Shown here: piece after piece, positions 4,173 to 43,277 of the stretch
Layout of the letters: every line of letters begins with the position of its first letter
Position numbering within the stretch: position 1 is the first letter of the stretch
DNA from: Acidobacteriaceae bacterium
GTDB lineage: Bacteria > Acidobacteriota > Terriglobia > Terriglobales > Acidobacteriaceae
Assembly (NCBI GenBank): GCA_003168355.1
Contig: PMSQ01000064.1
Coordinates: 1-50,985, forward strand
Length of the DNA stretch: 50,985 nt
Direction: 5' to 3'
Position numbers and translations under genes: made by a program
The notes under the pieces: generated by a model
Told to the model about the DNA's origin: nothing
Database searches by the model: none
Seen by the model: the letters and a program-made list of their open reading frames with translations, nothing else

Positions 4173-5714
4173 CTAGAACTCCACGTGGGCGCGGAATGAG
4201 GGGACGAGGACGGGGCCGCGGTCGCGGTTGTAGCCGGGGTTGACGATGTGCTGCACACCGGGCGCGAGATAGATGCCATGCCAGACGTGGACCGTGTAGT
4301 AAGACTCCACGATATTTTCCCGGCCGTAGTTGAGCGCGCTATCGCCGAGCAGGAAGCCGAGGCCGCCATCGGCCAAGTATGTCTGATGATCTTTCTTGAT
4401 TGCGTTCGAGACGAAGGCAATGCCGGCGCGATCTTGTTTGCGATGCCACCACGCGCCATTCGCTCCCAAGCCTTCGGCAAAGGTTTGATCGACTTCGGTG
4501 TAGGCGAAGGACTCGGTCTTGCCGTTGTCCCAGCCGAAGCGGGCGAATGCGGTCAGGTTGGGTAAGAGCTTTTGCTCGAGGTTGACGCCGAATCCGTACT
4601 TGCGCGTGATGTGCCAGGGATGGTTGGTGATTTCGGGGATCAGTTCCGGCTGCGGAGCGGTGTGATCTTCAAACTGCGCAATGGCGTCGCGATAGATACC
4701 CATGTTGGCGTAGTTGGTGTAGGCCAAGAGGCGGACGACGCCCGCTTTCTTTGGGATCAAGCCGTGACGCAGTTCGTATTCAAGGTTTTCGGCGTGGGCT
4801 TGCCAGGGCCGCCAGACCAAATCGATTCCGTTCGCGACCTTGGGCATGAGGGCTTCGGCGAAGCGGAGTCCCCAGTTGCGGTCTTCGAAGTCGGCGGTGG
4901 CGCCGACGGTGTAGCCGCGCGTGTCGGCGGCGTAGTCGTAGGCGCCGTTGTTGTCGGTGGTCCAGTTGATGAACTGAAGATGGGTGTCAGAGCCCACGGA
5001 GTTTACATCGAAGAAATCCGGCATGCTGAATTTGCCGAAGCGGAGTTCCAGACGGCGGCGCGGCAGTTCGTCAAAGAGCGATAGGAAATTGCGCTGGTTT
5101 TCGATTTTGTCCTTGCTCAGAGCAAACACCTTGTGAATCACGCCCCGCGCCAGATAAGGTTCTTTGCTTAGAAGAGGATTCCTCACGATATCGAGATCGG
5201 TATTGCCGGCGAGCCCCAAGCCGGTGCTGAGAGCGGATCCGCCAGCCTCTTCGATATCGACGAGAAGTTCGGTGGAATTATTGAGACGCACGCCGGTGTA
5301 GAAGGTCATCACGCGGGACGTGGCTTTCTCATAGTTGGGGCTGAGGCTATTCTTCCCGCTGTAAGCGGCATAGAACGGAGGGTGAGTTTGAAAAATGAAG
5401 TTCGCCTGGCCAGAGAGCCAGAAGCGGGAGTCGTTGAAATGGGGGAACATGGCTTCGGGGGCATCCTCTGGAGGGGGATCAGGGGCGGTGGCCGTGCCGG
5501 TTTGCGGCGCGGTATCAGACTTTTGCGCGGAGGGTAGGTCCGATTGTTGGGCCGGGGCCGGGGCGGCACAGGCGGCCGCGACTATCAACAGCAGCGCAAA
5601 GCTGACTCCGGCGGATCGGAAAATCCGAGGCGCGGCTAGTTTCGGGTTTGCGCCCAAAGCTGCTTTGAGGAGTGCGACGCGCCGCACTGGAGTGAAAATG
5701 GACTTCAATTTCAT
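4173..5714 (-). CDS. Carbohydrate-selective porin, OprB-like
   Basis: An outer-membrane beta-barrel of about 513 residues. From the start at 5714 (MKLKSIFTPVRRVALLKAAL) there is a basic n-region, a hydrophobic segment (VSFALLLIVAAACAAPAPAQ) and a Pro/Ala/Thr-rich linker before the barrel begins near HFNDSRFWLSGQANFIFQTH. The barrel has many alternating aromatic strands and ends in FRAHVEF, the terminal Phe needed for outer-membrane insertion. RFGKFSMPDFFDVN and the GYTVGATADFEDRNWGLRFAEAL segment resemble OprB-type porins that take up sugars. A longer start at 5765 (MMMGGTKRN) exists but adds an unlikely n-region. It is transcribed away from the metal-sensor gene, with a palindromic operator candidate upstream. 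Confidence 0.7.
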   Translation of the reverse strand: MKLKSIFTPVRRVALLKAALGANPKLAAPRIFRSAGVSFALLLIVAAACAAPAPAQQSDLPSAQKSDTAPQTGTATAPDPPPEDAPEAMFPHFNDSRFWLSGQANFIFQTHPPFYAAYSGKNSLSPNYEKATSRVMTFYTGVRLNNSTELLVDIEEAGGSALSTGLGLAGNTDLDIVRNPLLSKEPYLARGVIHKVFALSKDKIENQRNFLSLFDELPRRRLELRFGKFSMPDFFDVNSVGSDTHLQFINWTTDNNGAYDYAADTRGYTVGATADFEDRNWGLRFAEALMPKVANGIDLVWRPWQAHAENLEYELRHGLIPKKAGVVRLLAYTNYANMGIYRDAIAQFEDHTAPQPELIPEITNHPWHITRKYGFGVNLEQKLLPNLTAFARFGWDNGKTESFAYTEVDQTFAEGLGANGAWWHRKQDRAGIAFVSNAIKKDHQTYLADGGLGFLLGDSALNYGRENIVESYYTVHVWHGIYLAPGVQHIVNPGYNRDRGPVLVPSFRAHVEF

Positions 5715-16707: not shown

Positions 16708-17424
16708 TTATGTTTCGATTCCCACGTGGCAGACGCGGCCGACGATGTAGTCGGAGGCAGACTTGCCCTCTTCCATGGTTACGACTTCGACGGGATAAGC
16801 CTGGTTGTGAGGCCGCAGAATCAGGTGATTAACGGCCGTTTCCACGTATTTCACCGTGCAATTGTCATTCTTGAGAACAGCGTACATGTTGAACTCACCC
16901 TTACGGTAGGGTTTGAGCGAGTTGTAGTGGCGGTCGATGAGGAGCGTGGCGCCGGGCAGAAGGCGGGGATACATGCTCATGCCTTCGCGAGCGTCTACTT
17001 TGATGATCACGAACCGTTCCCACCGGTCGCGATCGCCTTCGGTTTCAGCTTTCAGCTTCTTCAGAAAGTTTTTCTTGAACTTGAGGATTTCCTTGACGTT
17101 CATGCTGGTGATGAGGGGTTGGGTGGCGGCGACGGCGCCGTCGGTGAGGAGGACGTTCTGGAACTCGTCGTCGCTAGGAGGCAAAATCGAGGCGCGCTTG
17201 TTAACCTCGGACGGATCGAGCAGATCAAGCACCGAAAGATGCTGGACCGTCAGAACCCTGTCCATGCCCTCAAGGCTGAGGCCGCGCTTGCGATTCAGGA
17301 AGTTGGAGATATGAGCCTGCTTGAATCCGGTCTGCTGTGCCAGGCGGAGGCCGGTCAGATCACCTTCATCGATGCGCTCCCAAAGAGTTTCGCGCAGATT
17401 GTCTTGCAGTACTCGGAATTTCAT
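16708..17424 (-). CDS. CI/LexA-type repressor: HTH plus S24 peptidase
   Basis: 238 residues. The N-terminal XRE-like helix-turn-helix spans about residues 22-50 (LTGLRLAQQTGFKQAHISNF). The C-terminal S24 domain has GMSMYP with Ser150, and NCTVKYVE with Lys192. The 42-residue spacing is close to that of lambda CI (Ser149/Lys192), so RecA-stimulated self-cleavage is likely. I cannot identify a clear Ala-Gly cleavage site; GAVAATQ near residue 97 is a candidate. It is transcribed divergently from the island genes with palindromic sites between. I infer the master repressor of the island, linking it to DNA damage. Confidence 0.85.
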   Translation of the reverse strand: MKFRVLQDNLRETLWERIDEGDLTGLRLAQQTGFKQAHISNFLNRKRGLSLEGMDRVLTVQHLSVLDLLDPSEVNKRASILPPSDDEFQNVLLTDGAVAATQPLITSMNVKEILKFKKNFLKKLKAETEGDRDRWERFVIIKVDAREGMSMYPRLLPGATLLIDRHYNSLKPYRKGEFNMYAVLKNDNCTVKYVETAVNHLILRPHNQAYPVEVVTMEEGKSASDYIVGRVCHVGIET

Positions 17425-17570: not shown

Positions 17571-17810
17571 ATGAGTAGCGGGGATAATTGTAACGAAGAG
17601 AAGAACTTTGTCGAATTCCGCAGGAAAGTGCGGGCGGCCGAGGTGCTTTCGGCGGCCATGGAGCATCTGCTGAGGTCGGTGAACTTCAGCGGGCGGATCA
17701 GCGTGGTGGTGCAAAACGGCCGGGTGCTGAAATCAGGATATGAGGAGGGATTTTTTCGCCAACGGGCGTCCGGATCAATGCTGGCCGGCGGCGCGGCGCT
17801 CGAACCGTAA
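17571..17810 (+). CDS. Small early-region protein, unknown
   Basis: 79 residues, first gene rightward of the control region. FVEFRRKVRAAEVLSAAMEHLL forms a helix, followed by a short beta unit, GRISVVVQNGRVLKSGYEEG, which resembles the small DUF2292/YezD proteins only in outline. The C-terminus is flexible. Its position suggests an immediate-early product controlled by the repressor. No better family assignment is possible. Confidence 0.6.
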   Translation: MSSGDNCNEEKNFVEFRRKVRAAEVLSAAMEHLLRSVNFSGRISVVVQNGRVLKSGYEEGFFRQRASGSMLAGGAALEP

Positions 17811-17886
17811 ACGCCGGGAAGCGATACGCGTTAAGGTCTTGACGAACAACTAAATAGCGCAAGCAGGCCATCGCAAGAGAAACGAG

Positions 17887-17938
17887 CCCTGCGTTCGGTT
17901 ACCGCTCTGAGAGCGGCGACTGGCGCAGGGTTTTTTTT
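17887..17938 (+). terminator. Strong two-stem intrinsic terminator
   Basis: CCCTGCG (17887-17893) pairs with CGCAGGG (17924-17930) and is followed by eight T. An inner hairpin CCGCTC-TGA-GAGCGG (17902-17916) lies in its loop. It separates the first small gene from the zinc-ribbon/sigma-like operon, so the latter needs read-through or its own promoter. Confidence 0.85.
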
Positions 17939-18019
17939 GGCTGCGGGCGCTGGGTTTCAGTAAAAAGCTTTTCAACCGCCCAGCTTAGCAATGCGGAGCC
18001 GGGAGCCTTAGGAGAAATT

Positions 18020-18304
18020 ATGAAAAAGAAGAGAGAGACCAGTCCCTCGAACGAGTTGAGTCTTGAACTGAAGTATTGCGAACGGTGTGGCGGGTTGTGG
18101 CTGCGTCCGGTGGGCGGGGAACAAATCTATTGCGCGGCTTGCGGGCGCGAGATGGCAGAACTGCCTCCGGCCTCCTACGAGCGGCAAGGAGTGGAAGGCG
18201 CGAGGATGCCGCGCGGACCGCGGTGGGGCATGTACGAGAACGACGTTGAAAGCTTTGAGGAATACGACGGACTGGATATCGATGCGGCGGGAGGTGTGGC
18301 ATGA
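18020..18304 (+). CDS. Zinc-ribbon protein
   Basis: 94 residues. Four cysteines at 20, 23, 38 and 41 (CERCGGLWLRP...YCAACG) form a CxxC-x14-CxxC zinc ribbon. The tail is acidic. It overlaps the next gene by ATGA, so the two products are probably made together and may act together on DNA or RNA polymerase. The start follows TAGGAGAAATT. The function is unknown; a transcription-factor role is inferred from the ribbon and the partner. Confidence 0.7.
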   Translation: MKKKRETSPSNELSLELKYCERCGGLWLRPVGGEQIYCAACGREMAELPPASYERQGVEGARMPRGPRWGMYENDVESFEEYDGLDIDAAGGVA

Positions 18305-18918
18305 GCGGGTTTGTGGATTGGATCGCGGCAGAGGTGGACGAGTCTGATCCGGTAGAGAACACGCCGAGCACACGGCAGACGGTTGGGGAGCGGATGAAAG
18401 AGCAGGGCAACGGGCTTCCTTCAGAAGTTGGCTCGTGGAAAACGTTGCCGGCGCATAACTTTCCGGCGCGCCCGGTTTCTGATGGCGCTCCGATGTCAAC
18501 TGCACCGGACTATGACTGGGATCGCGACCCGGACATTTGGCTCTACCGAAAGAAAACAACCGCTTTACTGCGGCGCTACATGCGGTGGTCGCTGGAGGCG
18601 GGACGGGTGCCGTCTTTGTTGGGCCGGGAGTTATTTCGCGCGAGGATCACAGCTTATACGGCGACTACGTTTGAGGCGCGGGTGATCTTTCTACACGACG
18701 TGGAGCAGTGCCTGGACCGGCTGCAGGATTTTGACCGGCAGATTATTGCGCGGGTTTGCTTGCAGGAGTATGACCATGAAGCGGCGGCGCGGATTCTGCA
18801 ATGCACTCGCAGAACGCTATCGCGCAGACTGCCGGAACTGATCGATGAACTGAGTGAAGCGTTTCTCAAGGCGGAGTTGCTGGACCGGATTCCGGAAACC
18901 GAGGAGGAGACGCTATGA
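18301..18918 (+). CDS. Sigma-region-4-like DNA-binding regulator
   Basis: 205 residues. After a variable, probably disordered N-terminus (1-75), a helical core (LYRKKTTALLRRYMRWSLEAGRVPS) leads to LQDFDRQIIARVCLQEYDHEAAARILQCTRRTLSRRLPELIDEL. That block reads like a sigma-70 region 4 or ArpU-type HTH at about 140-185. No region 2 is recognisable. Such proteins in phages control late genes. It is coupled to the zinc-ribbon gene by a 4-bp overlap. I infer a late-gene activator of the island. Confidence 0.6.
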   Translation: MSGFVDWIAAEVDESDPVENTPSTRQTVGERMKEQGNGLPSEVGSWKTLPAHNFPARPVSDGAPMSTAPDYDWDRDPDIWLYRKKTTALLRRYMRWSLEAGRVPSLLGRELFRARITAYTATTFEARVIFLHDVEQCLDRLQDFDRQIIARVCLQEYDHEAAARILQCTRRTLSRRLPELIDELSEAFLKAELLDRIPETEEETL

Positions 18919-18950
18919 GGCACGAGGAATGGGAGGAGAAGGAGAAAGTC

Positions 18951-19133
18951 TGTGGAAAAAGTTGTCAAGAGGGGGAAGGGGTTGATTTTTGTGCAAGTGA
19001 TTGAAAAAGGGGAGACAATAAATTCCAAAAAATGTCACATTTGCCCTATGCGGTGTGATATAATGGTTTTGTAAGGTAAAGAAAAAAGCAATACTCTGTG
19101 AGGGCGCGCTGAAGAGCGCGCCTTTCGTATTTT
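18951..19133 (+). repeat. Tandem non-coding unit, copy 1
   Basis: A stretch of about 183 bp starting TGTGGAAAAAGTTGTCAAGA, about 90% identical to 19255-19440. Each copy holds an extended -10 box, a short spacer and an intrinsic terminator, and neither copy has a credible ORF. The shared 5' half, with GGGGTTGA and TGCAAGTG, may carry regulatory sites. Confidence 0.85.
19071..19133 (+). ncRNA. Predicted short RNA 1
   Basis: TGATATAATGG places TATAAT at 19059-19064 with an extended TG element. A transcript from about 19071 would run about 60 nt through GAAAAAAGCAATACTCT to the hairpin GGCGCGCT-GAAG-AGCGCGCC (19103-19122) and the tail TTTCGTATTTT. No good -35 box is seen, as is common for extended -10 promoters. 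The start point is inferred. Confidence 0.6.
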
Positions 19134-19195
19134 CGGGATGCGAAAGGCTCACTTGATTCCAGAGCAGATGTGACTACAGGCGACGGCTTCGCCCT

Positions 19196-19221
19196 CCGGA
19201 CAGCCGAGGGCGGCTGTCCCT
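19196..19221. repeat. Dispersed palindrome between the two short-RNA units
   Basis: CCGGACAGCCGAGGGCGGCT followed by GTCCC forms a strong hairpin. Its relative is at 9045-9070 in chromosomal DNA. Confidence 0.55.
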
Positions 19222-19254
19222 ACAAGTTCCTGGGCAAGTTGACCGAAAATTGGT

Positions 19255-19440
19255 TGTGGAAAAAGTTGTCAAGAGGGGGAAGGGGTTGACTTTTATGCAA
19301 GTGGTTGAAAAAGTGGAGACAATAAATTTCAAAAAATGTCACATTTACCCTAATGCGGTGTGATATAATGGTTTTATAGAGTAAAGAAAAAAGCAATACT
19401 CTACGAAAGGCGCGCTAAACAGCGCGCCTTTCGTGTTTTT
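19255..19440 (+). repeat. Tandem non-coding unit, copy 2
   Basis: Second copy of the 18951-19133 unit, 122 bp downstream. Differences are scattered. The -10 region, the GAAAAAAGCAATACTCT core and the terminator stem are kept. The terminator stem is longer here (13 bp). Confidence 0.85.
19376..19440 (+). ncRNA. Predicted short RNA 2
   Basis: TATAAT at 19364-19369 with upstream TG. The terminator is CGAAAGGCGCGCT-AAAC-AGCGCGCCTTTCG (19404-19433), followed by TGTTTTT. The core sequence shared with RNA 1 is GTAAAGAAAAAAGCAATACT. The loop changes from GAAG to AAAC while the stem is retained. Confidence 0.6.
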
Positions 19441-19528
19441 GGGTGAAAAAATTTGTTGCACCGCAGCTTCGCGCACTGGCGTCACGAGGTTTGCGGACCA
19501 AGTCGCTGCTGCCCATGGGATTACCTCA

Positions 19529-19543
19529 CGCGGCTGAAGCCGG
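19529..19543 (+). repeat. REP-like palindrome
   Basis: CGCGGCTGAAGCCGG upstream of the histone-H1-like gene belongs to the family seen at 4060, 14401 and 16611, and shows that host-type repeats occur inside the island. Confidence 0.55.
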
Positions 19544-19581
19544 GATTCGGATGACGCCGACAGTTTTGTGGAGGGCGAGAC

Positions 19582-20142
19582 TTGGGTATAAAGAAGGAGG
19601 CAAAGGGAAAGGGCAAGGGGAAAGCCAAGAAGCCGGCGAAGAAAAGCGCGCCGACGACAAGGAAGCCGGCGGAGGAAAACACGCCGGGCACAAAGAAGCC
19701 GGCGGAGGAAAGCACGCCAACGACAAAGAAGCCGGTAGAGGAAAGCACGCCGGTGACAAAGAAGCCGGCGGATATGGTTCAGGTGAGGGAAAACATCAGC
19801 GATCTGGTGAGGGGCTCAGCGGAAGGCATCGCAACCAAGGTGATTGAAGTCGCCATGACCGGACAACTGGCGTCAGCGAAGTATTTGTTCGAAGCGGTGG
19901 GTCTGTATCCAGCAACTGAGCAGACGGCAGCGATTCCGGTGGAGGATTCGCTGGCGCACACGCTTCTGAGGCGGATGGGCCTGCCGCTGGATCCGGTGGT
20001 CACGGACGAAGACCAGGTCCCCGTGTTGGCGAGCGATACGAAGAGCATAAGGGCTGAGACGACGACGCCGGGCAGGGGGGAAGAAAATCCTGGAGGAGAA
20101 CGCGCGGAAGAACATATCCCGGTTCCTGAGGGCGAACACTAA
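19582..20142 (+). CDS. Histone-H1-like tailed protein of unknown function
   Basis: 186 residues from a TTG start preceded by GGAGGG. Residues 1-62 are Lys/Pro/Ala-rich (KEAKGKGKGKAKKPAKKSAP), then four 11-residue units of the type TPGTKKPAEES, resembling bacterial H1-like tails that bind nucleic acid. A compact helical segment follows (VRENISDLVRGSAEGIATKV, ASAKYLFEAVGLYP), and then an acidic tail. A small-terminase or DNA-condensing role is conceivable but unproven; terL is 15 kb away. The repeat region reads open in another frame too, but this frame has the better start and end. Confidence 0.6.
   Translation: MGIKKEAKGKGKGKAKKPAKKSAPTTRKPAEENTPGTKKPAEESTPTTKKPVEESTPVTKKPADMVQVRENISDLVRGSAEGIATKVIEVAMTGQLASAKYLFEAVGLYPATEQTAAIPVEDSLAHTLLRRMGLPLDPVVTDEDQVPVLASDTKSIRAETTTPGRGEENPGGERAEEHIPVPEGEH
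19648..19773 (+). repeat. 33-bp tandem repeat, about four units
   Basis: Units such as ACGCCGGGCACAAAGAAG followed by CCGGCGGAGGAAAGC repeat in frame, encoding the 11-residue TP-x-TKKPAEES motif. The unit number could change by slippage. Confidence 0.85.
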
Positions 20143-20480
20143 ATGTGCATTCGAGGGAGTTTAGCGGTTGCAGTTTTCGCTGGCGGGAGGGAGATCAAGG
20201 GCTCCAACGCAGAGAAGGGCTGCAGAGATGGCGAAGAGGATACCGTAGAATGAAGCGCGGGAGTTGCGGAATCGGAGAGACGGGCTGGCCGACAGCCCTG
20301 TCGATTTCGCCGCGGGTGGGATCGCACAAAAGGAAAGCTGCTGGAAAGCGATCCGCGGCGGGAAGATTGCGAGGCGGGTCTGCGGGGATCGAGGGCGTCC
20401 ATACTGCCGAGTATCTTCGGATCTCTCAGGGGAACATTCGGGCGGACAAGAATGTCGGCCTCAAACGACGCAGGGTGGGG
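20143..20480 (+). other. 338-bp stretch with no supported gene
   Basis: Several frames are open, but none shows a recognisable protein, a good ribosome binding site or consistent codon use. GACGGGCTGGCC...GACAGCCCTGTC near 20280-20305 has hairpin potential. It may be a decayed gene or leader of the phosphatase gene. Confidence 0.4.
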
Positions 20481-20921
20481 ATGGATATAACATGGCTGAC
20501 CGACCGGATCGCGGTTGGTGGCGGAATCTGGACGACGGATAACATGGCGGCGGTGTCGCGTGCGGGGATCACACACATCATCGACATGCAGATTGAGTTC
20601 GACGACACGGAGCTGGCGAGGCCGCACGGAATTGCGGTCTGTTGGAATCCGGTGGACGATGATTTTGAGCCGAAGCCTCCCGAGGTATTTGCGCGGGGAG
20701 TAGAGTTTGCGCTGGCCACGCTAGAAAAGAATGGAGCGAAGCTGTTTATCCACTGCGCGGCTGGAGTACACCGGGCGCCGATGATGGCGCTGGCGCTGTT
20801 GGGAGTGATGGGGTGGACGGTGGAGGATGCGATGGATTTGATCGAGACGCGGCGGCCAGTGGCTGATTTCGCGGGGGTGTATGTGCGCAGTGTGGAAAAG
20901 TTTCTGAACGGAAGAGGTTAA
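20481..20921 (+). CDS. Dual-specificity protein phosphatase
   Basis: 146 residues. The Cys-based signature HCAAGVHRA gives His91, nucleophile Cys92 and Arg98. The general-acid loop is NPVDDDFEPKP (Asp59-61). The N-terminal WLTDRIAVGGGIWTTDNMAAVSRAGITHIID is typical of DSP/atypical DSP folds. Start 20481 (MDITWLTDRI) follows AGGGTGGGG; the open frame reaching back to 20145 has no family resemblance. It should dephosphorylate phospho-Ser/Thr/Tyr or other phosphates in the host cytosol. Its presence in a phage-like locus is unusual. Confidence 0.85.
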   Translation: MDITWLTDRIAVGGGIWTTDNMAAVSRAGITHIIDMQIEFDDTELARPHGIAVCWNPVDDDFEPKPPEVFARGVEFALATLEKNGAKLFIHCAAGVHRAPMMALALLGVMGWTVEDAMDLIETRRPVADFAGVYVRSVEKFLNGRG

Positions 20922-34506: not shown

Positions 34507-35556
34507 GTGAGCGAAGAGTGGAAGTTGCAACATCATGTGCGCTGCGAATGCGTGAAGTGCATTGATCATCCTTCGCAAGCGCGGCCTGGGATCCATGTGT
34601 TTCCAGATCGGTTGCATGTGGTGACGATGCTGGAGAATCCGCTACGCTGGCGGTCGCGCTACTGGAACTACTGGATGTTCGAGCGGGAGTGCGAAGCGGC
34701 CGGGGCGATCCTGTACACGGCTGAGGTGGCATTTGGGGATCGCCACTTCGAAGTGACCCAGGCTAGCAATCCGCGGCATTTGCAATTGCGGACTTCGAGC
34801 GAGATCTGGCACAAGGAGAATGCGCTGAACCTGCTGATTCAGCGCCTGCCAGCGGTGGCGAAGTACGTTGCGTGGATTGACGCTGATGTGAAGTTCAACC
34901 GGCCGGATTGGGCGCAGGAGACGCTGCAGCTTTTACAGCATTATGACGTGCTGCAGATGTTCAGCCACGCGCAGGATGTAGGACCGGACTATGAGCCGCT
35001 GGCGACGACTCCGGGTTTTTTTTATAAGTGGGTGACGGACCGGCCGAGTCCGCATGAACCGACCTTCCTGCAGCAAAAGCCGGCGTATGGCTATTACAGC
35101 GTACATAGCGGGCAGTTTTGGCACCCAGGATTTGCATGGGCAGCAAAGAGAAGCGCGCTGGAAAGTGTTGGCATGATGATTGACCACGCCATTTTGGGTT
35201 CGGGCGACTGGCACATGGCATCAGCGCTGGTGGGGCAGGTTCACCGGTCATTGTACTCGGGATATTCGCCAGCATACACCCGACGATGCCTGGAGTGGCA
35301 GGAGCGAGCTGAGAAATATATCCGACGCAATATCGGCTATCTGCCCGGACTGGTAAATCATCTTTTTCACGGGGCGAAGCAGAATCGCTCGTATGACCAA
35401 CGCTGGAGGTTTCTGGCGCAGTCGGGATATGACCCGGATCTCGATTTGAAGCGGGACTGGCAAGGACTGTATCAACTCACGGATCGAAGCGTGATCCTGC
35501 GGGATGGGATTCGGCAGTACGCGCGGATGAGGAGTGAGGATTCGACACAGGTGTGA
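34507..35556 (+). CDS. Glycosyltransferase-like protein (GT-A fold)
   Basis: 349 residues from a GTG start after GAGGG. N-terminal VVTMLENPLRWRSRYWNYWMF and KYVAWIDADVKFNRPDW suggest a nucleotide-sugar-binding GT-A domain, with WIDADV as the DxD-like metal site. The later segments HPGFAWAAKRSALESVG and LGSGDWHMASALVG fit acceptor-side family-2-like transferases. HLFHGAKQNRSYDQRW is near the C-terminus. It is cytosolic with no membrane segment. It may glycosylate a virion protein, DNA or host surface precursor. It lies just upstream of terL. Confidence 0.65.
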   Translation: MSEEWKLQHHVRCECVKCIDHPSQARPGIHVFPDRLHVVTMLENPLRWRSRYWNYWMFERECEAAGAILYTAEVAFGDRHFEVTQASNPRHLQLRTSSEIWHKENALNLLIQRLPAVAKYVAWIDADVKFNRPDWAQETLQLLQHYDVLQMFSHAQDVGPDYEPLATTPGFFYKWVTDRPSPHEPTFLQQKPAYGYYSVHSGQFWHPGFAWAAKRSALESVGMMIDHAILGSGDWHMASALVGQVHRSLYSGYSPAYTRRCLEWQERAEKYIRRNIGYLPGLVNHLFHGAKQNRSYDQRWRFLAQSGYDPDLDLKRDWQGLYQLTDRSVILRDGIRQYARMRSEDSTQV

Positions 35557-35620
35557 AGACTCTGTGAGATCTTGCCCTTGGCCGTGCAGCTCAGAGCCGG
35601 TTAAGAGAAGCTTTCAGCTA

Positions 35621-37189
35621 ATGCGAAGAAGCGAAGAGCGCCAAGGGGCGCAGACGGGTGAAAGGCGAACTGTGGAGGGCGACCTTTATCTGTTGCAACA
35701 ACTCGGGCCATTTCTCGATCAGCAGGTGGGAGAGCAGACGGTGAGAGACCAGCTGATCAGCGGGTTGCTGAAAATTCGCCCCAAGAAGGGCGGAAGCACG
35801 TGGCTGCGATTGAACCGGGCGCAGAGGGAGTATTCGGAGAAATGCAGTCGGCAGAACATTGTGCTGAAAGCGCGGCAGTTGGGGATAACGACGTATGTTG
35901 CAGCGCGATATTTTCTGCAAACGATCACGCGACCGGGGACGCTGACGGTGCAGGTGGCGCACAGCCAGGAATCGGCGGAGGCGATTTTCAATATTGTGCA
36001 ACGCTTTTGGGAGAACCTGCCCAAGGCGATGCTGAAGGGAGCGCTGGTGAAGTCGCGCTCCAATGTCCGCCAGATCGTATTTCCGCGGCTCGACAGCGAG
36101 TATCGAGTGGAAACGGCGGATGAAAACGCGGGGCGGGGGATGACCATCCATAATCTGCATTGCTCGGAGGTCTCCCGCTGGCCCCGCGGAGGGTTGGAAA
36201 CGCTGGCTTCGCTGCGGGCGGCGGTGGTGCCGGACGGTGAGATCGTGCTGGAATCCACGCCTAACGGGGCGACCGGCGCATTCTACGGGGAGTGGCAAAA
36301 AGCGAACGAGACCGGTTACACGCAGCATTTCTTCCCCTGGTGGTATGACGAAGGCTATCAAGACGTTGTCCAGAGAGGAAAAATACTGCCGCTGACGCCC
36401 GAAGAGAGCGAGTTGGTGAGGCAGCATGGGTTGAGCGAGGGACAGATCGCATGGCGCCGCGAGCGGTGGAAGACTCTGCGCAACCTGGCTGCGCAGGAGT
36501 ATGCCGAGGATGCGAGTTTGTGCTTTCTGGTTTCCGGAGAGTGCGTGTTCGAACTAACGGCGATCGAGAAAGCGGTGGGAATGGCGGGAGATGCGGCCGA
36601 ATCGGAAGACAACGGACGGCTTACGATCTGGTTTCCTCCGCAGAAAGGGAGACGGTACATCCTGGGAGTGGACACGGCGGGCGGAGGAACGGACGGGGAT
36701 TATGCCTGCGCGCAGGTTATCGAGCGGACAATGGGAATGCAGTGTGCGGAGTTGCATGGCCACTTTCCTCCGCACGAGCTGGCGCGGCGGGTCGCGGATC
36801 TGGGGCAAAGATATGAGCGGGCGCTGGTAGCCGTGGAACGGAATAACCATGGGCATGGGGTGCTGGCGCACTTGAATCACCTGGCGTATGAAAATCTTTT
36901 CGAGAAAGATGGTCAGCCGGGTTGGCTGACGTCGGCGGCGAGCCGGCCGGCGATGATCGAGAATATGGCGGCGGTGCTGATGTCGGAGCCGGAGTTGTTC
37001 CACAGCCCACGGCTGCTGGAGGAGTGCCGGACTTTCGTGAGACGTGCCGAGGGAAATGCGGCAGCGGCCGGCGGAGCGCATGACGATTGCGTGATGGCGA
37101 TGGCGATCGCGCTAGCGGTACGCCGAGAGGATGCGGGGCGGGGCGTGAAGAAGAGAAGCCTAGAGATGGCTAGCCTGGTGGTGGGATGA
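35621..37189 (+). CDS. terL: Terminase large subunit
   Basis: 522 residues. The packaging motor and nuclease of tailed phages. The ATPase has a Walker A-like VLKARQLGITT (82-92), Walker B region HNLHCSEVSRW (about 177-187) and coupling motif ESTPNG (211-216). The C-terminal RNase-H-like nuclease has ILGVDTAGG (Asp351), AVERNNHG (Glu406) and AHDDCVMAMAIAL (Asp488/489). All key residues are present, so it should be active. Start 35621 (MRRSEERQ) is chosen over 35534, whose extension overlaps the previous gene. No small subunit is recognisable next to it. Confidence 0.92.
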   Translation: MRRSEERQGAQTGERRTVEGDLYLLQQLGPFLDQQVGEQTVRDQLISGLLKIRPKKGGSTWLRLNRAQREYSEKCSRQNIVLKARQLGITTYVAARYFLQTITRPGTLTVQVAHSQESAEAIFNIVQRFWENLPKAMLKGALVKSRSNVRQIVFPRLDSEYRVETADENAGRGMTIHNLHCSEVSRWPRGGLETLASLRAAVVPDGEIVLESTPNGATGAFYGEWQKANETGYTQHFFPWWYDEGYQDVVQRGKILPLTPEESELVRQHGLSEGQIAWRRERWKTLRNLAAQEYAEDASLCFLVSGECVFELTAIEKAVGMAGDAAESEDNGRLTIWFPPQKGRRYILGVDTAGGGTDGDYACAQVIERTMGMQCAELHGHFPPHELARRVADLGQRYERALVAVERNNHGHGVLAHLNHLAYENLFEKDGQPGWLTSAASRPAMIENMAAVLMSEPELFHSPRLLEECRTFVRRAEGNAAAAGGAHDDCVMAMAIALAVRREDAGRGVKKRSLEMASLVVG

Positions 37190-37326
37190 TTCTCCGTCAG
37201 GAATCGCGAAGGGAGTTCATTCGTCACAGCAAATCGGCGGGCAATGGGATAAGATGTCGGGCTTTACGGTAGGGGGAGTGGTGGCTACGGAGTTTCGCGG
37301 GCAAGAGCGCCCGCGCCACACTGACA

Positions 37327-38130
37327 TTGGTGGAAGCAGTCCAACACGTTAGAAGGATGCGAGGCGGAGCGCAGGGGCATTTGATGCGCTGCTCCGACGG
37401 GAAGTTTTATGTGGTGAAGTTCCGAAACAATCCGCAGCATCTGCGAGTGCTGACTAATGAGATGCTGGCGACGCGACTGGCGGAGCGGGTGGGGTTGCCG
37501 GTGCCGGCAACAGAAGTGGTGGAAGTGGGCGACTGGCTGGTGGAGCATACGGCGGAGCTGCACATTCAGCTTGCGCATGACGTTATCCGATGCCAGCCAG
37601 GATTACAATTTGGATCGCGGTATGCGGTGAGTCCGCTGGAAGGGCAGGTGTTCGACTATCTGCCGGTAGAGATGTTCGGGCTGGTGCGGAATCTGGAGAC
37701 ATTTGCGGGAATGCTGGTGGTGGATAAATGGACGGGGAACGCGAACGGGCGACAGGCGGCATTCTGGCGGAAGTTGCGGGAGAGAAAGTACACGGCAGCG
37801 TTCATTGATCAGGGATACTGCTTCAACGCCGGGGAGTGGACGTTTCCGGATTATCCGCTACGAGGCGTGTATGCGCGGAATGAGGTATATGAGGGCGTGC
37901 GCGGGTGGGAGTCCTTCGAACCATGGCTTTCGCGCATCGAGGGGATGGAAGAAGACATTGTGTGGACGCTCGCGGGGGAGATACCTCCGGAGTGGTACGG
38001 CGGGAAATGGGACGAGTTGGAGAAGCTGGTGCGGACTTTGATTGGGCGGCGGAGGGTGGTGCGCGAGTTGATTGAGGCATTTCGAGTCTCGCCGCGGCGG
38101 CCGTTTCCGGAGTGGAAAGAACAGGCCTAA
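37327..38130 (+). CDS. HipA-like kinase
   Basis: 267 residues from TTG 37327 or GTG 37330. The fold resembles the compact HipA/PI-kinase-like family: DGKFYVVKF (ATP-binding Lys31), NEMLATRLAERVGLPVP, the catalytic loop VVDKWTGNANGRQ (Asp133, Asn138/Asn140) and AAFIDQGYCFNAGEW (metal Asp161 in the DFG position). HipA kinases phosphorylate a protein target and act as persister toxins in E. coli. I have seen such kinases described next to DUF3037 genes, as here. It is not part of a standard head operon and sits between terL and portal. Confidence 0.75.
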   Translation: MVEAVQHVRRMRGGAQGHLMRCSDGKFYVVKFRNNPQHLRVLTNEMLATRLAERVGLPVPATEVVEVGDWLVEHTAELHIQLAHDVIRCQPGLQFGSRYAVSPLEGQVFDYLPVEMFGLVRNLETFAGMLVVDKWTGNANGRQAAFWRKLRERKYTAAFIDQGYCFNAGEWTFPDYPLRGVYARNEVYEGVRGWESFEPWLSRIEGMEEDIVWTLAGEIPPEWYGGKWDELEKLVRTLIGRRRVVRELIEAFRVSPRRPFPEWKEQA

Positions 38131-38170
38131 GTCTCTAACACAGGGACACAGGGGAACACAGGGTAAGGCT

Positions 38171-38998
38171 TTGGCGCCTGATCGACGACAGTTCGAGTTT
38201 TTCCTGCTGCGGTATGTGCCGGACGCGGTGAAGGATGAGTTTGTCAATATCGGCTTGGTGATGGTTGAGGCACGGGCGAACGGGGGTGGGACGAACGACA
38301 TCGCGTTCGCGGATGTGCGATTTACGCGAGATTGGCGGCGAGTGCGGTGTTTGGATCCGCAGGCGGATGTGGAGATGCTTGCGGCACTGGAACGGGAGAT
38401 TCGCGGGCAACTAGCGACGACGCATGATCGTGAGGGTTTACTGCGGTGGTTGGAAGACTCGTTCTCGAATGTGATTCAGATTTCGCCGACGAAGGGATGC
38501 CTGGCGGAAGATCCGGCGCGGGAGATTGAGGCGATGGCTTCGATGTACCTGGATGCGGCGAAGCTGGCGGGAAGGCATGAGGCCACCGGGAGGCAGTGGA
38601 TTTTAGGGAAGATGCGGGATGCGTTTGAGCAGGTTGGAGTTGCGAAGCTTCTTCTTCCGGTTCCAGTCGCGCCTTATACGAAGCCGGGTGATCCATTCCA
38701 CTTTGATTTTGGATATCGCGTAGGAGGCGAGATCAAGTTGTTCCACGCCGTTTCGTTGAAGGCAAACGTGGACGCGGCGATCATGCTGGCTGCGCGCTAT
38801 CCGAAGATTGCGCCGGTTATGTCGAAAATGACTGATGCGTCGCCCGTGCTAACGGCTGTGATCGATGATGACCTGGATCGAGGACAGGAAAGCGTTCAGT
38901 TTGCGCTGAGCATGATGGAGGATGACAGGATTCGCATTGCGGTGGCGGCTGAGATGCCGATGATTGCCGAGGTGGCGCGGCGGGATTTGAGAGCGTGA
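38171..38998 (+). CDS. DUF3037 protein, partner of the HipA-like kinase
   Basis: About 275 residues. The N-terminal core FEFFLLRYVPDAVKDEFVNIGLVMVE is the DUF3037 signature. The rest is alpha/beta, with GDPFHFDFGYRVGGEIKLFHAVSLK and RYPKIAPVMSKMTDASPVLTAV, a shape reminiscent of nuclease-like folds though no catalytic set is evident. The start is uncertain: TTG at 38171 is the first reasonable codon after the kinase stop, while the frame is open back to 38072. A repetitive ACACAGGGACACAGGGGAAC lies between the genes. The function is unknown; a neutralising or effector role with the kinase is inferred only from pairing. Confidence 0.7.
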   Translation: MAPDRRQFEFFLLRYVPDAVKDEFVNIGLVMVEARANGGGTNDIAFADVRFTRDWRRVRCLDPQADVEMLAALEREIRGQLATTHDREGLLRWLEDSFSNVIQISPTKGCLAEDPAREIEAMASMYLDAAKLAGRHEATGRQWILGKMRDAFEQVGVAKLLLPVPVAPYTKPGDPFHFDFGYRVGGEIKLFHAVSLKANVDAAIMLAARYPKIAPVMSKMTDASPVLTAVIDDDLDRGQESVQFALSMMEDDRIRIAVAAEMPMIAEVARRDLRA

Positions 38999-39036
38999 GG
39001 GAATGAAGGGAGCAAGAAAAGAAATCGCACTCGTCC

Positions 39037-39267
39037 TTGCAGTTATCGGCATTTGCTGGTTGCTTAGGCGTTCCATGTAAGACACCCCCAGGGTTGAGAG
39101 GTTTCAAGCAGATTGATCTTCTGGCGACGGTTGGAGGTTGCTTGATCCTTTCTCTGGCGGCTTTGGGCGCCGGCCTTCTTGCGCCGAGACGGATTCGCGT
39201 AGCTGTGGCGTTGGGTGGCTTCACGATGGCCAGTTTGATTTTATCCATTCGCATGGGCGTGCTTTGA
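39037..39267 (+). CDS. Small membrane protein, doubtful
   Basis: 76 residues from a TTG. Two hydrophobic segments (LATVGGCLILSLAALGAGLL and VALGGFTMASLILSI) flank a basic loop APRRIRV. Another frame from ATG 39004 encodes a short hydrophobic peptide (KEIALVLAVIGICWLL), so a frameshifted three-helix protein is possible. The ribosome binding site is poor. A host-like or holin-like small membrane protein could be imagined, but support is weak. Confidence 0.35.
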   Translation: MQLSAFAGCLGVPCKTPPGLRGFKQIDLLATVGGCLILSLAALGAGLLAPRRIRVAVALGGFTMASLILSIRMGVL

Positions 39268-39299
39268 ACGAAACGAAGTAAGTCCCAGGCGTAGGGTCG

Positions 39300-39320
39300 C
39301 CCCGCTATGGCGGGGTTTTT
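39300..39320 (+). terminator. Intrinsic terminator before the portal gene
   Basis: CCCCGC-TATG-GCGGGG followed by TTTTT. It insulates the portal/head genes from the HipA/DUF3037 insertion. Confidence 0.8.
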
Positions 39321-39416
39321 CTTTTGGTTTCGAGGGCGAGACGCACTTTCGACAGCCAGGGCGCCGGCAGCTGCGGGGCGACTGTCTCCACATTAACTTT
39401 TCTAGAGAACAACTTT

Positions 39417-40649
39417 ATGAATATTAGAGAGACGTTGCGCGGCGCTATGCGCCGGATTGCGGGAGTGTCTGCGGGCTCATCTCTGGCTACGGCGGAGAAG
39501 AAGCGACGGACGTTGCCGTTGCCTTCTATTTTCAACTCGTATGGGCCGCCAGGCGACATCATGCCGAAGCCGACGGCTTACAACCTGCGGCGGTTTTCGG
39601 AGATTCCAGTGCCGCGGCGGGCGATCAATTGCATTAAGGACCGGATTGCGGGGATGCGCTGGAGGATTCAGGCGCGCCAGGGGCTTTCGCTCGACGCGCT
39701 TCCTGAAGGTGCGAAGCGCGCGGAGATTCTCACGGAAAACTTCAACTCGCCGAATCCCGACGATTCGTTCCGGTCGTTTTCCGAGCAGGTGCTGGAAGAC
39801 ATTATCGTGGGCGGCTACGGGGCGATCGAGGTGCAGACTTCGGGCGATTCGAAACATCCGTTGCTGCTGTGGCCGGTAGATGGATCGTCGATCCGGATGA
39901 ATCTGGATTGGGATGGGTCGCCGCACGGGCCGCGTTACTTGCAGGTTACAGATCAGTCGGGACCGAAAAGTCAGATCACTCTGGATGACGATGAGTTGAT
40001 TTACATCCGCCTGAATCCGCGGACGCACACGCCGTTTGGGTTAGGGCGGCTGGAGGTTGCGTTTGAAACCATCAACGCTTTTCTGGGGGCGCACCGGTAT
40101 GCGTCGCGCCTGGCGTCGAATTCAGTGGTGCAGTACGCGTTGTGGCTGCAGGATTTGACTCCAGAGCATCACGAGAGGCTAATTCGCTGGTGGCAGGACG
40201 AGATTGAGGGCACAGGACGAGTACCGATCCTCTCGGTTGAAAGCAAGCCCGAGGTGCTGCGGTTCGGCGGAGGGACCGATGCCGACTTGCGATTGCAGTG
40301 GCAGGAATTTCTGCTGCGCGTGATCGCCGACGCGTTTGACCTGCCTCCGTTCTACCTGGGAGTGGAAGCGGACGTGAACCGATCCACCGCGGAGGAATAT
40401 AACGACCTCGCGTTTCGGCAGGCGATTGTGCCGACGGCGCGGCTCCTGGCGGAACATCTGACGCGGGATGCGATTCAGAAAAAGCTGGGATGGAACGATC
40501 TGGAGTTTGTGTTCGCGGAACTGGATACGCAGGATCCGTTAGAAGAGGCGCAGATTCAACAGATTTTGTTGCAGAACGGAGTGCTCACGGTGAATGAAGT
40601 GAGGAGGATGCGGGGATTGCCCGACTTGAACGCGCCGGCTGGGCAGTGA
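39417..40649 (+). CDS. Portal protein (HK97 type)
   Basis: 410 residues. It forms the dodecameric channel through which terminase packages DNA. Segments typical of the family: PVPRRAINCIKDRIAGMRWRI, EQVLEDIIVGGYGAIEVQ, DDDELIYIRLNPRTHTPFGLG (portal loop), and the C-terminal VLTVNEVRRMRGLPDL that follows the helical stem. Start 39417 (MNIRETLRGAMRR); the frame is open to 39324 inside the terminator, so the longer start is rejected. The protease gene follows directly. Confidence 0.9.
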   Translation: MNIRETLRGAMRRIAGVSAGSSLATAEKKRRTLPLPSIFNSYGPPGDIMPKPTAYNLRRFSEIPVPRRAINCIKDRIAGMRWRIQARQGLSLDALPEGAKRAEILTENFNSPNPDDSFRSFSEQVLEDIIVGGYGAIEVQTSGDSKHPLLLWPVDGSSIRMNLDWDGSPHGPRYLQVTDQSGPKSQITLDDDELIYIRLNPRTHTPFGLGRLEVAFETINAFLGAHRYASRLASNSVVQYALWLQDLTPEHHERLIRWWQDEIEGTGRVPILSVESKPEVLRFGGGTDADLRLQWQEFLLRVIADAFDLPPFYLGVEADVNRSTAEEYNDLAFRQAIVPTARLLAEHLTRDAIQKKLGWNDLEFVFAELDTQDPLEEAQIQQILLQNGVLTVNEVRRMRGLPDLNAPAGQ

Positions 40650-40710
40650 CGGATTTGGCAAGTTCGTGGAGGGAACTCCCCACAGTCCGCTTGGCTGATG
40701 AAGAAGTGCA

Positions 40711-40772
40711 GAGATCCTTGGACTGCGGTTGTACTTCGCGTTCGCGAACCACAACCTCGGCTCAGGATGACA
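40711..40772 (+). repeat. ATCCT...AGGAT dispersed palindrome
   Basis: GATCCTTGGACTGC, an internal GGTTGT...ACAACC stem, and then GGCTCAGGATGACA, lying between the portal stop and the likely protease start. Confidence 0.7.
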
Positions 40773-40795
40773 CAGGAATAATCAAGGACATCGAA

Positions 40796-41551
40796 ATGAT
40801 TGAAATGAAGGGTATGGCGGTGGCGATGCCGGAGGTGGCCGGGCATCCTAACCGGACGGCGTTTGAGGGAGTATTGACGATGGTCGATATACCATCGCAG
40901 CGTGCGCCCTCGGGTGCAAAAGGGCACCTAGTAGTGTTGACAAGGCGAGCGGCTGAGGCGGCTTTGTCGTCACTCCTCGGGATGGCATTGGATTACTCGC
41001 CTACTCTGGATCGGCATGATGTGAGACGCAAGGTGGGCGTGATCACGCGAGCAGAGATTGTGGGACAAAAACTTGAATTGGGCGGCTATCTGTTTGCGAG
41101 GGATTTTCCTGAGATTGTGGAGGAGATTGCAAAGTCGTCAAGGGGCGGCGAACGCAGATCCTTCGCTTCCGCGCGCGGCGAGCGCCCTCAGACTGCGACG
41201 ATGCACGCAGCAGTGAGACTGCGGGAGTCTGGGCGGTGGACAGAGGGGTGCAAATTGAAATCCTCGTTGCGGGCGGCGGCCGGTCAGATTCTCAATCTAA
41301 CGACGGTGATGCGGCGGATTCCCGGGAACCGGCTGGAGCAAGTTGACAGAACTGGTCCGACGATACGCGCCGAGACCTGTGCTGCGGCCGGGGCAGCTGG
41401 GCTTGGCTTGTCGTACGAAGTGACTGATGTGCAGCTGACAGATACAAGGGCGCGGGTTTGGACGCTGACGAAAGTGACATTCACGGGAGCGGCGATTCTA
41501 CGGCGGGACAAAGCGGCATACCCTGACACATGGATTGAGTTGAGTACTTAA
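40796..41551 (+). CDS. Prohead maturation protease-like protein with internal insertion
   Basis: 251 residues from ATG 40796 (MIEMKGMAVAMPEV). N-terminal GHLVVLTRRAAEAALSSLLG, LDRHDVRRKVGVITRAEIVG with a candidate catalytic His, and LELGGYLFARDFPEIVEEI fit phage head proteases. C-terminal LSYEVTDVQ and LTKVTFTGAAILRRDKAAY match the end of such domains. Between them is a basic stretch of about 80 residues (SRGGERRSFASARGERP...). Its DNA (41151-41185) resembles a degraded dispersed repeat, so the catalytic Ser region may be displaced. Its position between portal and scaffold/capsid supports the call. Confidence 0.65.
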   Translation: MIEMKGMAVAMPEVAGHPNRTAFEGVLTMVDIPSQRAPSGAKGHLVVLTRRAAEAALSSLLGMALDYSPTLDRHDVRRKVGVITRAEIVGQKLELGGYLFARDFPEIVEEIAKSSRGGERRSFASARGERPQTATMHAAVRLRESGRWTEGCKLKSSLRAAAGQILNLTTVMRRIPGNRLEQVDRTGPTIRAETCAAAGAAGLGLSYEVTDVQLTDTRARVWTLTKVTFTGAAILRRDKAAYPDTWIELST

Positions 41552-41607
41552 TACTGAGTATCGATTCACCAAAGCTTGAGGTGGAGAACACCGAGGAGGA
41601 GAAGAAC

Positions 41608-42039
41608 ATGAATGAAGAGATGGTGCAGCAGTTGATGACGACGGCGGAACGGTTGGCGAGCGCGGCCGAATCGTTGGATCGTGTGCTGGGGCGACTGGAT
41701 GCGCAGCAAGAGGCGCTAAACACGAAAGTGGACCGGATTGTGGCGGCGGTGGAAGAGCAGCCGTCGCATGAGATGTCGGCGCGTGGTGAAGGCGCCCGAC
41801 ATTTGCAGGAGCGAGTGGCGGAACTGGAGAAATCCAACGCAGATCTGAAAGCGCAAGCGGCACGGATGGCGAGAAAGACGCTTCCGCCACTGGTTTCGGC
41901 AATCCTGGCCAAGAGCTGCGATGAGTCTGGCAGTGAGCGGCTCGACAAAGGAGTGCTGGACAAAACCCTGCAGAGTCTGAGCGTGGAGCAGCGGATCGCA
42001 GTGAAGTCGGAGCTAGCGAGGGCGGGGATTATCGAGTAG
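41608..42039 (+). CDS. Coiled-coil protein, candidate capsid scaffold
   Basis: 143 residues. Long charged helices with heptad character (VQQLMTTAERLASAAESLDR, LQERVAELEKSNADLKAQAA), then a small helical end (VLDKTLQSLSVEQRIAVKSE). GAGGAGGAG before ATG 41608 sets the start; the GTG at 41581 is less likely. Position between protease and capsid gene, size, and coiled coil all fit an internal scaffolding protein. No direct family match is claimed. Confidence 0.6.
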   Translation: MNEEMVQQLMTTAERLASAAESLDRVLGRLDAQQEALNTKVDRIVAAVEEQPSHEMSARGEGARHLQERVAELEKSNADLKAQAARMARKTLPPLVSAILAKSCDESGSERLDKGVLDKTLQSLSVEQRIAVKSELARAGIIE

Positions 42040-42096
42040 GCAGGACTTGGGTGCTGGGTCGCAGGTCTTAGGCGACAACAAGACGAGACGAAATGG

Positions 42097-42120
42097 GGCA
42101 CGACTTGGTCGTGCCTTTTT
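42097..42120 (+). terminator. Intrinsic terminator before the capsid gene
   Basis: GGCACGAC-TTG-GTCGTGCC followed by TTTTT. A perfect 8-bp stem. Capsid expression must come from read-through or a promoter in 42121-42175. Confidence 0.85.
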
Positions 42121-42186
42121 CATTTGGAGTGAGCAAATCAAAGCAATCGATTTCAAATCGCAGGAAAAATCAACAGAGGAGAAAAC

Positions 42187-43152: not shown

Positions 43153-43155
43153 AGG

Positions 43156-43250
43156 ACAGTCGTTAGTCGTTGGTCGTTACCTTTAGTCGTTCGCGATAGT
43201 GGCCGCACCATTATCTGCAAACGACTAATGGCTGACGACCAACGACATTT
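43156..43250. repeat. Inverted microrepeat (GTCGTTGGTCG type)
   Basis: CAGTCGTTAGTCGTTGGTCG and, reversed, TGACGACCAACGAC with AACGACTAATGGC lie in the 125-bp gap before the connector gene. Each arm is itself built of GTCGTT-like units. Confidence 0.65.
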
Positions 43251-43277
43251 TCTGTAACCAAGAATTGAGAACTCAAT

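Follow-up and report, generated by a model that had tools for sequence, protein, structure and literature searches.

The 50,985-nt stretch of Acidobacteriaceae DNA analyzed here (the window) holds two tandem units, each made up of a promoter, a leader, and a terminator, between the regulator gene sigHTH and the start of a cluster that derives from phage and has terminase and portal genes. We propose, with moderate confidence and on comparative sequence evidence, that the unit is an attenuated late-type promoter leader that would be released by a processive antiterminator, probably sigHTH itself. The units look more like gates that are held until released than like free small-RNA genes. A link with late control, which an earlier sequence-only reading of the same DNA had suggested, also has sequence support.

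The second copy is 90% identical to the first over 187 bp (query positions 1 to 187), and the direct-repeat segments pair 18951-19048 with 19255-19352 (94%), 19048-19097 with 19353-19402 (94%), and 19103-19137 with 19409-19443 (89%). Both copies carry a TG-A-TATAAT extended -10 and an identical GAAAAAAGCAATACTCT leader core, and the terminator hairpins of both are GC rich, each with a U-tract. Seven terminator-like sites were found in the scanned 3.5 kb, compared with 3.4 ± 1.9 in shuffled sequence, and the unit hairpins have the most pairs of the seven (11 in copy 1 and 15 in copy 2). With the transcription start assumed 7 nt after the hexamer, the predicted transcripts are about 63 to 64 nt long. 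The repeats and the hairpin scan thus confirmed what the sequence-only reading had described, namely, two tandem copies of about 90% identity with a TG-extended TATAAT, a common core, and a strong terminator, and its short terminated transcript of about 60 nt is supported by the sequence as well. A scan with the sigma-70 consensus called neither unit promoter, and no TTGACA-like -35 was seen; the case for the promoter is therefore a comparative one.

Table 1. Positions of the units, their elements, and the surrounding genes in the window
Feature	Position	Strand	Evidence
Unit copy 1 (promoter, leader, terminator)	18951..19142	+	Direct repeats, unit comparison, promoter model R1
Unit copy 2 (promoter, leader, terminator)	19255..19443	+	Direct repeats, unit comparison, promoter model R1
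Far-upstream element TTGTCAAG, copy 1	18962..18969	+	TGTCAA invariant in 38 aligned units; profile
Far-upstream element TTGTCAAG, copy 2	19266..19273	+	Profile; 38-unit alignment
Conserved block TGTCACATTTGCCC upstream of -10, copy 1; candidate regulator site	19033..19046	+	Pattern, profile, alignment
Conserved block TGTCACATTTACCC upstream of -10, copy 2	19337..19350	+	Pattern, profile, alignment
-10 TATAAT with TG extension, copy 1	19059..19064	+	
-10 TATAAT with TG extension, copy 2	19364..19369	+	
-10-like initially transcribed element TAAGGT, copy 1; candidate sigma-dependent pause	19072..19077	+	
-10-like element TAGAGT, copy 2	19377..19382	+	
Intrinsic terminator, copy 1	19100..19133	+	Hairpin 19100-19125; stem covariation
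Intrinsic terminator, copy 2	19402..19440	+	Hairpin 19402-19435; stem covariation
Peptidase-S24/CI-like repressor gene, divergent from the regulator genes; candidate SOS-type switch	16711..17424	-	PF00717 8.4e-8; phrog_4 6.5e-12
Zinc-ribbon protein gene	18020..18304	+	PF13453 3.7e-5, above cutoff; syntenic in relatives
sigHTH, C-terminal sigma-70 region-4-like HTH; candidate late regulator/antiterminator	18301..18918	+	PF08281 0.0018 (below cutoff); phrog_1740 1.2e-5
First cluster gene after the units, Lys-rich product, at small-terminase position	19582..20142	+	Homologue in 45/53 late loci
Dual-specificity-phosphatase-like gene	20145..20921	+	PF00782 9.5e-12
Terminase large subunit, downstream cluster	35534..37189	+	phrog_2 9.6e-28; PF17289 1.8e-4, just below cutoff
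Portal protein, downstream cluster	39324..40649	+	PF04860 1.1e-50; phrog_2662 1.6e-40

The unit was matched in 17 of 101 genomes searched, its own genome counted, and its own genome has six occurrences of the core pattern TGTCACA-N-GATATAAT and none of the reversed control pattern. An ungapped profile of 32 closer-genus units, with positions counted from the start of the hexamer, shows CTTGTCAAG near -97, TAAGTGATTG near -65, AATAAA near -44, and TGTCCCATTTACCC at -26 to -13, followed by TGnTATTCT or TATAAT, TAnAGAGT at +11 to +18, and an A-rich tract. In this closer genus set, the block TGTCnCATTTACCC at -26 to -13 is a candidate binding element with no consensus -35 to bracket it. In 19 other units (17 from other genera and two divergent members of the same genus, L043 and L048), conservation is mainly confined to the -10, with some of the start region and faint signs of the far element. 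Before the unit profile and the leader-fold comparisons, 13 of 64 rows judged spurious by eye were dropped.

For wider searches, we used R1, a promoter model built from sequence only, which ends at or before the terminator stem and was trained on 38 of the units counted below, their first transcribed bases included. R1 matched in 73 of 150 genomes, at 1 to at least 22 places each; a deeper scan placed it 6 times in G000, 18 times in G014, 5 times in G035, 11 times in G115, 65 times in G058, and 12 times in G045. From 67 sigHTH loci fetched (G050 left out), L045, with no clear unit and a truncated match, and L097, at a contig end, were excluded. The remaining 65 gave 63 matches, of which 60, in 53 loci, include the -10; the other three, in L066, L074, and L085, end before it and were excluded from the terminator count. 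All 60 of these late matches lie on the sigHTH strand, 13 to 442 nt past the sigHTH stop, and since seven loci hold two of the matches, tandem copies are recurrent. At L060, L065, L068, and other loci, the sigHTH frame extends across CTTGTCAAG and AATAAA, which places the promoter inside the 3' end of its gene; in 11 units with such an embedded promoter, the -10 lies 27 nt after the sigHTH stop.

Terminators are outside the R1 search model. The 110 nt that come after the -10 gave a terminator call for 51 of 60 late units, 36 of 44 nuclease-linked units, and 21 of 36 others. In the 110 nt preceding the promoter, which for late units lie largely within the sigHTH coding sequence, the corresponding counts were 13 of 60, 2 of 36, and 3 of 29, and in the next 110 nt beyond the tested stretch they were 1 of 58, 12 of 44, and 6 of 35. 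The reverse-complement control, which is the same hairpin read backwards, scores often (19 of 60, 22 of 44, and 15 of 35). The late and nuclease-linked rates exceed those of all controls. The further promoter rows in this survey were reduced from 95 to 80 by removing same-place repeats and two partial rows (L030 and L182), and L142 is counted both here and in the survey by sigHTH status. Across 32 units, 6 of the 11 stem pairs predicted by RNAalifold show change on both sides, which upholds the earlier view that the stem is under selection. Most homologues keep both the -10 and the terminator, as that reading would have it, but nine of the 60 late units lack a terminator call; in some of the nine, such as L068 and L082, a hairpin is visible by eye.

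The terminators mostly lie 20 to 60 nt past the -10, in front of particular genes. For the homologous gene, the first ATG is found at most 60 nt from the stem in 17 of 38 late units and in 13 of 36 that are nuclease linked, and at most 150 nt from it in 24 of 38 and 28 of 36, respectively; at some loci, the first ATG of the gene is only 10 to 30 nt past the stem. In the window, the first gene, which has a TTG start, begins 147 nt past the stem of copy 2. Given this gap, a further promoter may lie between the two. At two nuclease-linked loci, L030 and L033, a second GC-rich hairpin with a T-run was seen by eye between an AAGGAG-like site and the ATG, as if a terminator also separated the ribosome site from the start codon. 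A second conserved terminator-like leader, CAAGCAGGCC...GAGCCCTGCGTTCGGTT...GGCGCAGGG with a T8 run, lies at 17860-17938 (+), just 5' of the zinc-ribbon gene; leaders of this type were seen by eye in L005 (about 5600-5672) and L025, and the copy in the window has no Rfam match.

One feature of the leader does persist, namely, a hexamer of -10-like sequence (TAGAGT or GAGAGT) at about +2 to +7. A loose rule (A2, T6, and three of six positions matching, tried at five offsets) finds it in 82 of 140 units, compared with 43 ± 5 in shuffles, and a strict rule finds it in 40 of 140, compared with 22 ± 4. By class, the loose rule is satisfied in 42 of 60 late, 32 of 44 nuclease-linked, and 8 of 36 other units. 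The loosely defined element goes with the terminator (72 of 108 units with a terminator versus 10 of 32 without, P = 0.0004); under the strict rule, this link is not significant (34 of 108 versus 6 of 32, P = 0.12).

The element is also associated with the regulator. Among nuclease-linked units, it occurs in 32 of 43 from genomes with sigHTH versus 2 of 18 from genomes in which sigHTH was not detected, 9 of these 18 being from one genome, G128. Counted by genome (14 with and 5 without sigHTH), the contrast gives P = 0.003 (Mann-Whitney), and once the loci that BLAST retrieved with the window unit are set aside, it is 22 of 29 versus 2 of 18. A sigHTH profile matched none of 12 genomes classed as lacking the gene, some of which are incomplete (76 to 86%), and detected all four positive control genomes. 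Two genomes run counter to the association. G041, with no sigHTH detected, has the element in three of four units. G115, presumably a strain of Ca. Koribacter versatilis, has sigHTH and shows the element in only one of the nine rows examined outside its late locus (of 10 matches there), and a Koribacter-wide role of the element is unsupported by these nine units. Because the test was framed after we had read the AlpA paper, five offsets were tried, and the units are related by descent, the P values overstate the association; we regard these tests as leads, not proof.

The units could alternatively be autonomous genes for short trans-acting RNAs, with the nearby genes incidental, a reading we consider rather unlikely. 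It would fit the possession of a promoter and a terminator by each unit and the recurrence of tandem copies (7 of 53 late loci), and several G115 units have, by eye, no obvious close gene. A leader hairpin of AGAGT and ACTCT with an A-rich loop moreover beats shuffles at P < 0.05 in 13 of 32 closer-genus units, but it does so in only 2 of the other 19. Beyond the closer genus set, nothing of the leader interior is conserved apart from the -10-like element and the A-rich tract, no common seed is seen outside these parts, and homologous genes follow closely in many cases. We consequently do not favor the proposal that these are duplicated small RNA genes with host messages as targets, as the unit recurs before genes and its leader interior is poorly conserved, even though a released leader RNA may act in trans.

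What the dispersed copies stand in front of varies by genome. In the genome of the window, all four other unit copies precede genes of the PD-(D/E)XK endonuclease family PF11645, and the unit stands before only four of the eight PF11645 genes. A PF11645 gene follows the unit in all 13 rows examined in G014, in three of four in G035, and in several in other genera; for several G025 units, the linkage is one of selection, since they were entered through a PF11645 search. The generalization that all dispersed units precede PDDEXK_5 genes, which is true of the own genome and the 13 G014 rows, was dropped. With the PDDEXK_5 HMM, no match closer than 900 nt was found at three genus loci (L036, L139, and L159), in 7 of 17 further genus rows (L248, L251, L254, L255, L257, L260, and L262) or L264, or at any examined unit of G115, G058, and G045. 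G115 and G058 have no PF11645 match, and their units precede other genes (for a MacB/FtsX-type permease or an M20-type peptidase) or no obvious gene. In G058, where sigHTH was not detected, several of the 65 promoter-region copies run, by eye, into a TTTGTCATTCTGAGGC-type repeat with no clear terminator. At L148/L171 (G115, about 1268967-1269304), tandem units are followed by an ORF and a 2OG-Fe(II) oxygenase gene (PF13532 2.2e-55), presumably of the AlkB type, and a link to DNA damage is possible there. The idea of a tRNA promoter was rejected, as 41 loci held one tRNA, more than 1 kb from the unit.

Genomes without a detected sigHTH keep the terminator in 24 of 27 promoter units (28 matches of the further promoter search, the partial L267 left out), and G058 alone has its 65 matches; promoter and terminator therefore do not depend on sigHTH, and at least in those genomes another factor or a broader host promoter class must be at work. 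Such persistence would suit a general host promoter class in which the terminator is an insulator or operon end and the downstream genes use other promoters, as would three promoter matches that precede gatC genes (PF02686; L230, L234, and L245) with no terminator called. As an account of the unit as a whole, we find this improbable, because the promoter points at the terminator, which mostly lies close behind the -10 and before particular genes, with the start codon in some loci almost adjoining the stem.

An RNA-based attenuator, in which the leader responds to a ligand, a protein, or translation by refolding for readthrough, would account for a terminated leader in front of genes and for the leader hairpin in part of the genus. 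We consider it very unlikely. About 10 to 40 bases separate the -10 region from the stem, which leaves little room for an alternative antiterminator fold; for the 32 units, the terminator is the one fold that RNAalifold predicts, and the leader sequence varies. The Rfam 15 covariance models, which should include the Acido-1 and Acido-Lenti-1 families going by the excerpted text of PMC2864571, gave no match at gathering score in the whole window; at a low threshold, 17700-19600 gave three matches, all at chance level (E = 0.47 to 0.95). That the unit is a dispersed DNA repeat (a miniature element or nuclease cassette) with no regulatory role is hardly credible, for all its 1 to 65 copies per genome, tandem duplications, and linkage to PD-(D/E)XK genes, since conservation is limited to promoter, start, and terminator and its position behind sigHTH is fixed.

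The gene setting is that of a phage-derived cluster. Downstream of the units come genes for a Lys-rich protein, a phosphatase, two very large ORFs, the terminase large subunit, and the portal protein. The product of the first gene has no Pfam or PHROG match, and the name TerS-like was dropped and is not claimed, because its two-sequence AlphaFold model (mean pLDDT of 50) is too poor; a 33-bp in-frame tandem repeat (five overlapping copies, 19594-19791) lies in the stretch for its Lys/Pro-rich N-terminal part. The sigHTH protein has 205 amino acids and resembles sigma-70 region 4 in its C-terminal part. TIGR02937 matches all 10 sigHTH homologues examined, at best with 1.2e-6, the window protein being below the cutoff. 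A sigHTH profile found no match at E ≤ 1 among PDB sequences, and an AlphaFold model from a two-sequence alignment (mean pLDDT of 42) was not used.

Among the 150 genomes searched, sigHTH is present in 68, at one copy per genome, and the portal gene in 40. Both occur in 37 genomes and share a contig in 28; in all of the latter except G127 (27 of 28), the portal gene lies downstream of sigHTH on the same strand at 4.6 to 20.4 kb. S24 homologues divergent to sigHTH were found in L005/L112 (one genome), L108, and L111. By tblastn, G014 (L110, 14 kb read) keeps the block from p17571 to the adaptor with no S24 match. G115 has the S24, zinc ribbon, sigHTH, phosphatase, large-ORF start, terminase, portal, and adaptor but gave no match for p17571, the 19582 protein, HipA, or DUF3037, and G060 runs from S24 to the adaptor with no match for p17571, the 19582 protein, or the phosphatase. 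G035 (L112) keeps the repressor, the regulators, the unit, the first gene, the phosphatase, and the beginning of the first large ORF, but its genome gave no portal match and the 19 kb read gave no terminase (compared with window positions 35534-43904); from this case, the control region can outlive the structural genes. Viral contigs gave no sigHTH; two carry a portal gene, and their DNA matches lie within the structural part of the window, plus a 39-bp match at 19186. The sigHTH (5182860) and portal (5171359) genes of G115 fall inside the NC_008009 interval 5150000-5190000. This interval belongs to Ca. Koribacter versatilis and, apparently as cluster 153, to a published acidobacterial prophage group, whose members are described as prophages, with leader units absent from the part of the description available (PMC5900883).

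The anatomy of the units, their conservation, the placement of the terminators, the gene order, and the association of the -10-like element with the regulator can be read from the sequences. From these, we infer a start site, a pause, binding and antitermination by sigHTH, and a role for the S24 protein, which would combine as follows. RNA polymerase would start at the extended -10, make about 60 nt, and stop at the intrinsic terminator, so that the phage-derived genes downstream would stay silent. In an inducing state, probably the loss of the divergent S24 repressor, sigHTH, encoded just upstream, would bind the conserved promoter block and engage polymerase that is held where the first transcribed bases form the -10-like element. 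The resulting terminator-resistant complex would read into the late operon. The dispersed leader copies would keep PD-(D/E)XK nuclease genes poised to answer that signal too. We favor release by an antiterminator because the unit, beside an S24-type repressor, has candidate sequence counterparts of the elements used by Q, AlpA, and GafZ: an upstream block, a -10-like element, and a terminator are candidates, by analogy, for the features on which those proteins act.

In lambdoid phages, the late promoter pR' is followed by tR', with the Q gene upstream and the late operon behind. The layout here is similar, with a regulator gene just upstream, a short terminated leader, and a late operon after it. 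Unlike the Q system, it occurs in another phylum, and its leader is also dispersed before nuclease genes and often tandem. Q has two sequence requirements, a binding element within the promoter and, among the first bases transcribed, a -10-like pause sequence (PMC9371919). In the AlpR/AlpA/alpBCDE system of Pseudomonas aeruginosa, an autocleaving repressor is followed in action by an antiterminator (PMC7969949). For AlpA, the element lies between -10 and -35 and the -10-like pause at -1 to +5; at two loci, AlpA lets polymerase bypass the intrinsic terminators that precede the first gene (PMC7969949, PMC9371919). Our locus shares an S24-type repressor (its autocleavage putative), a promoter block as candidate binding element, a -10-like element, and a terminator before the first gene; it differs in its target, a phage structural cluster and many nuclease genes, in its far-upstream CTTGTCAAG element, and in being known from sequence alone.

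GafZ, of the Caulobacter gene transfer agent (GTA), is a predicted sigma-factor-like HTH protein whose element also lies between -10 and -35; it works with GafY, which has an element at -123 to -113, the system includes a repressor (RogA), and peripheral genes elsewhere are coactivated (PMC11150451). Here, too, a sigma-like HTH protein is encoded with the cluster, with matches that are weak and below curated cutoffs. The Caulobacter terminator, built from three 150-bp repeats, follows the first gene, and GafZ acts on a single target (PMC11150451), whereas our terminator precedes the first gene, about 30 to 60 nt into the transcript, and the leader is multicopy. The likeness of sigHTH to Q, AlpA, and GafZ is one of cis-element layout and, for GafZ, of a predicted HTH.

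These three systems are proteobacterial or from coliphages (PMC9371919, PMC7969949, PMC11150451). Our literature search, with subscription papers mostly outside its reach, found nothing on acidobacterial gene transfer agents, small RNAs, or terminators, nothing on GTAs, prophages, or domestication in the group or on PDDEXK in Acidobacteria, and, in work on antitermination, no such acidobacterial leader; the available portions of PMC5900883 and PMC11924767 describe none either. Control of this kind is already known; what we did not find in print is a multicopy, tandem-prone leader that, in Acidobacteria, is common to a conserved phage-derived cluster and nuclease genes.

In its widest form, our model has a single sigma-region-4-like antiterminator that would use a portable leader of promoter, pause, and terminator, which each genome has in several to many copies, to corelease a domesticated, family-wide prophage or GTA cluster and scattered PD-(D/E)XK genes; we offer this extension tentatively and hold it to be possible, if doubtful. 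If true, it would mean multicopy antitermination in an abundant soil phylum, whose natural variants of pause, block, and terminator would allow comparative dissection. It would also point to a way of inducing acidobacterial phage-derived clusters and would tie these clusters to a nuclease set of unknown purpose.
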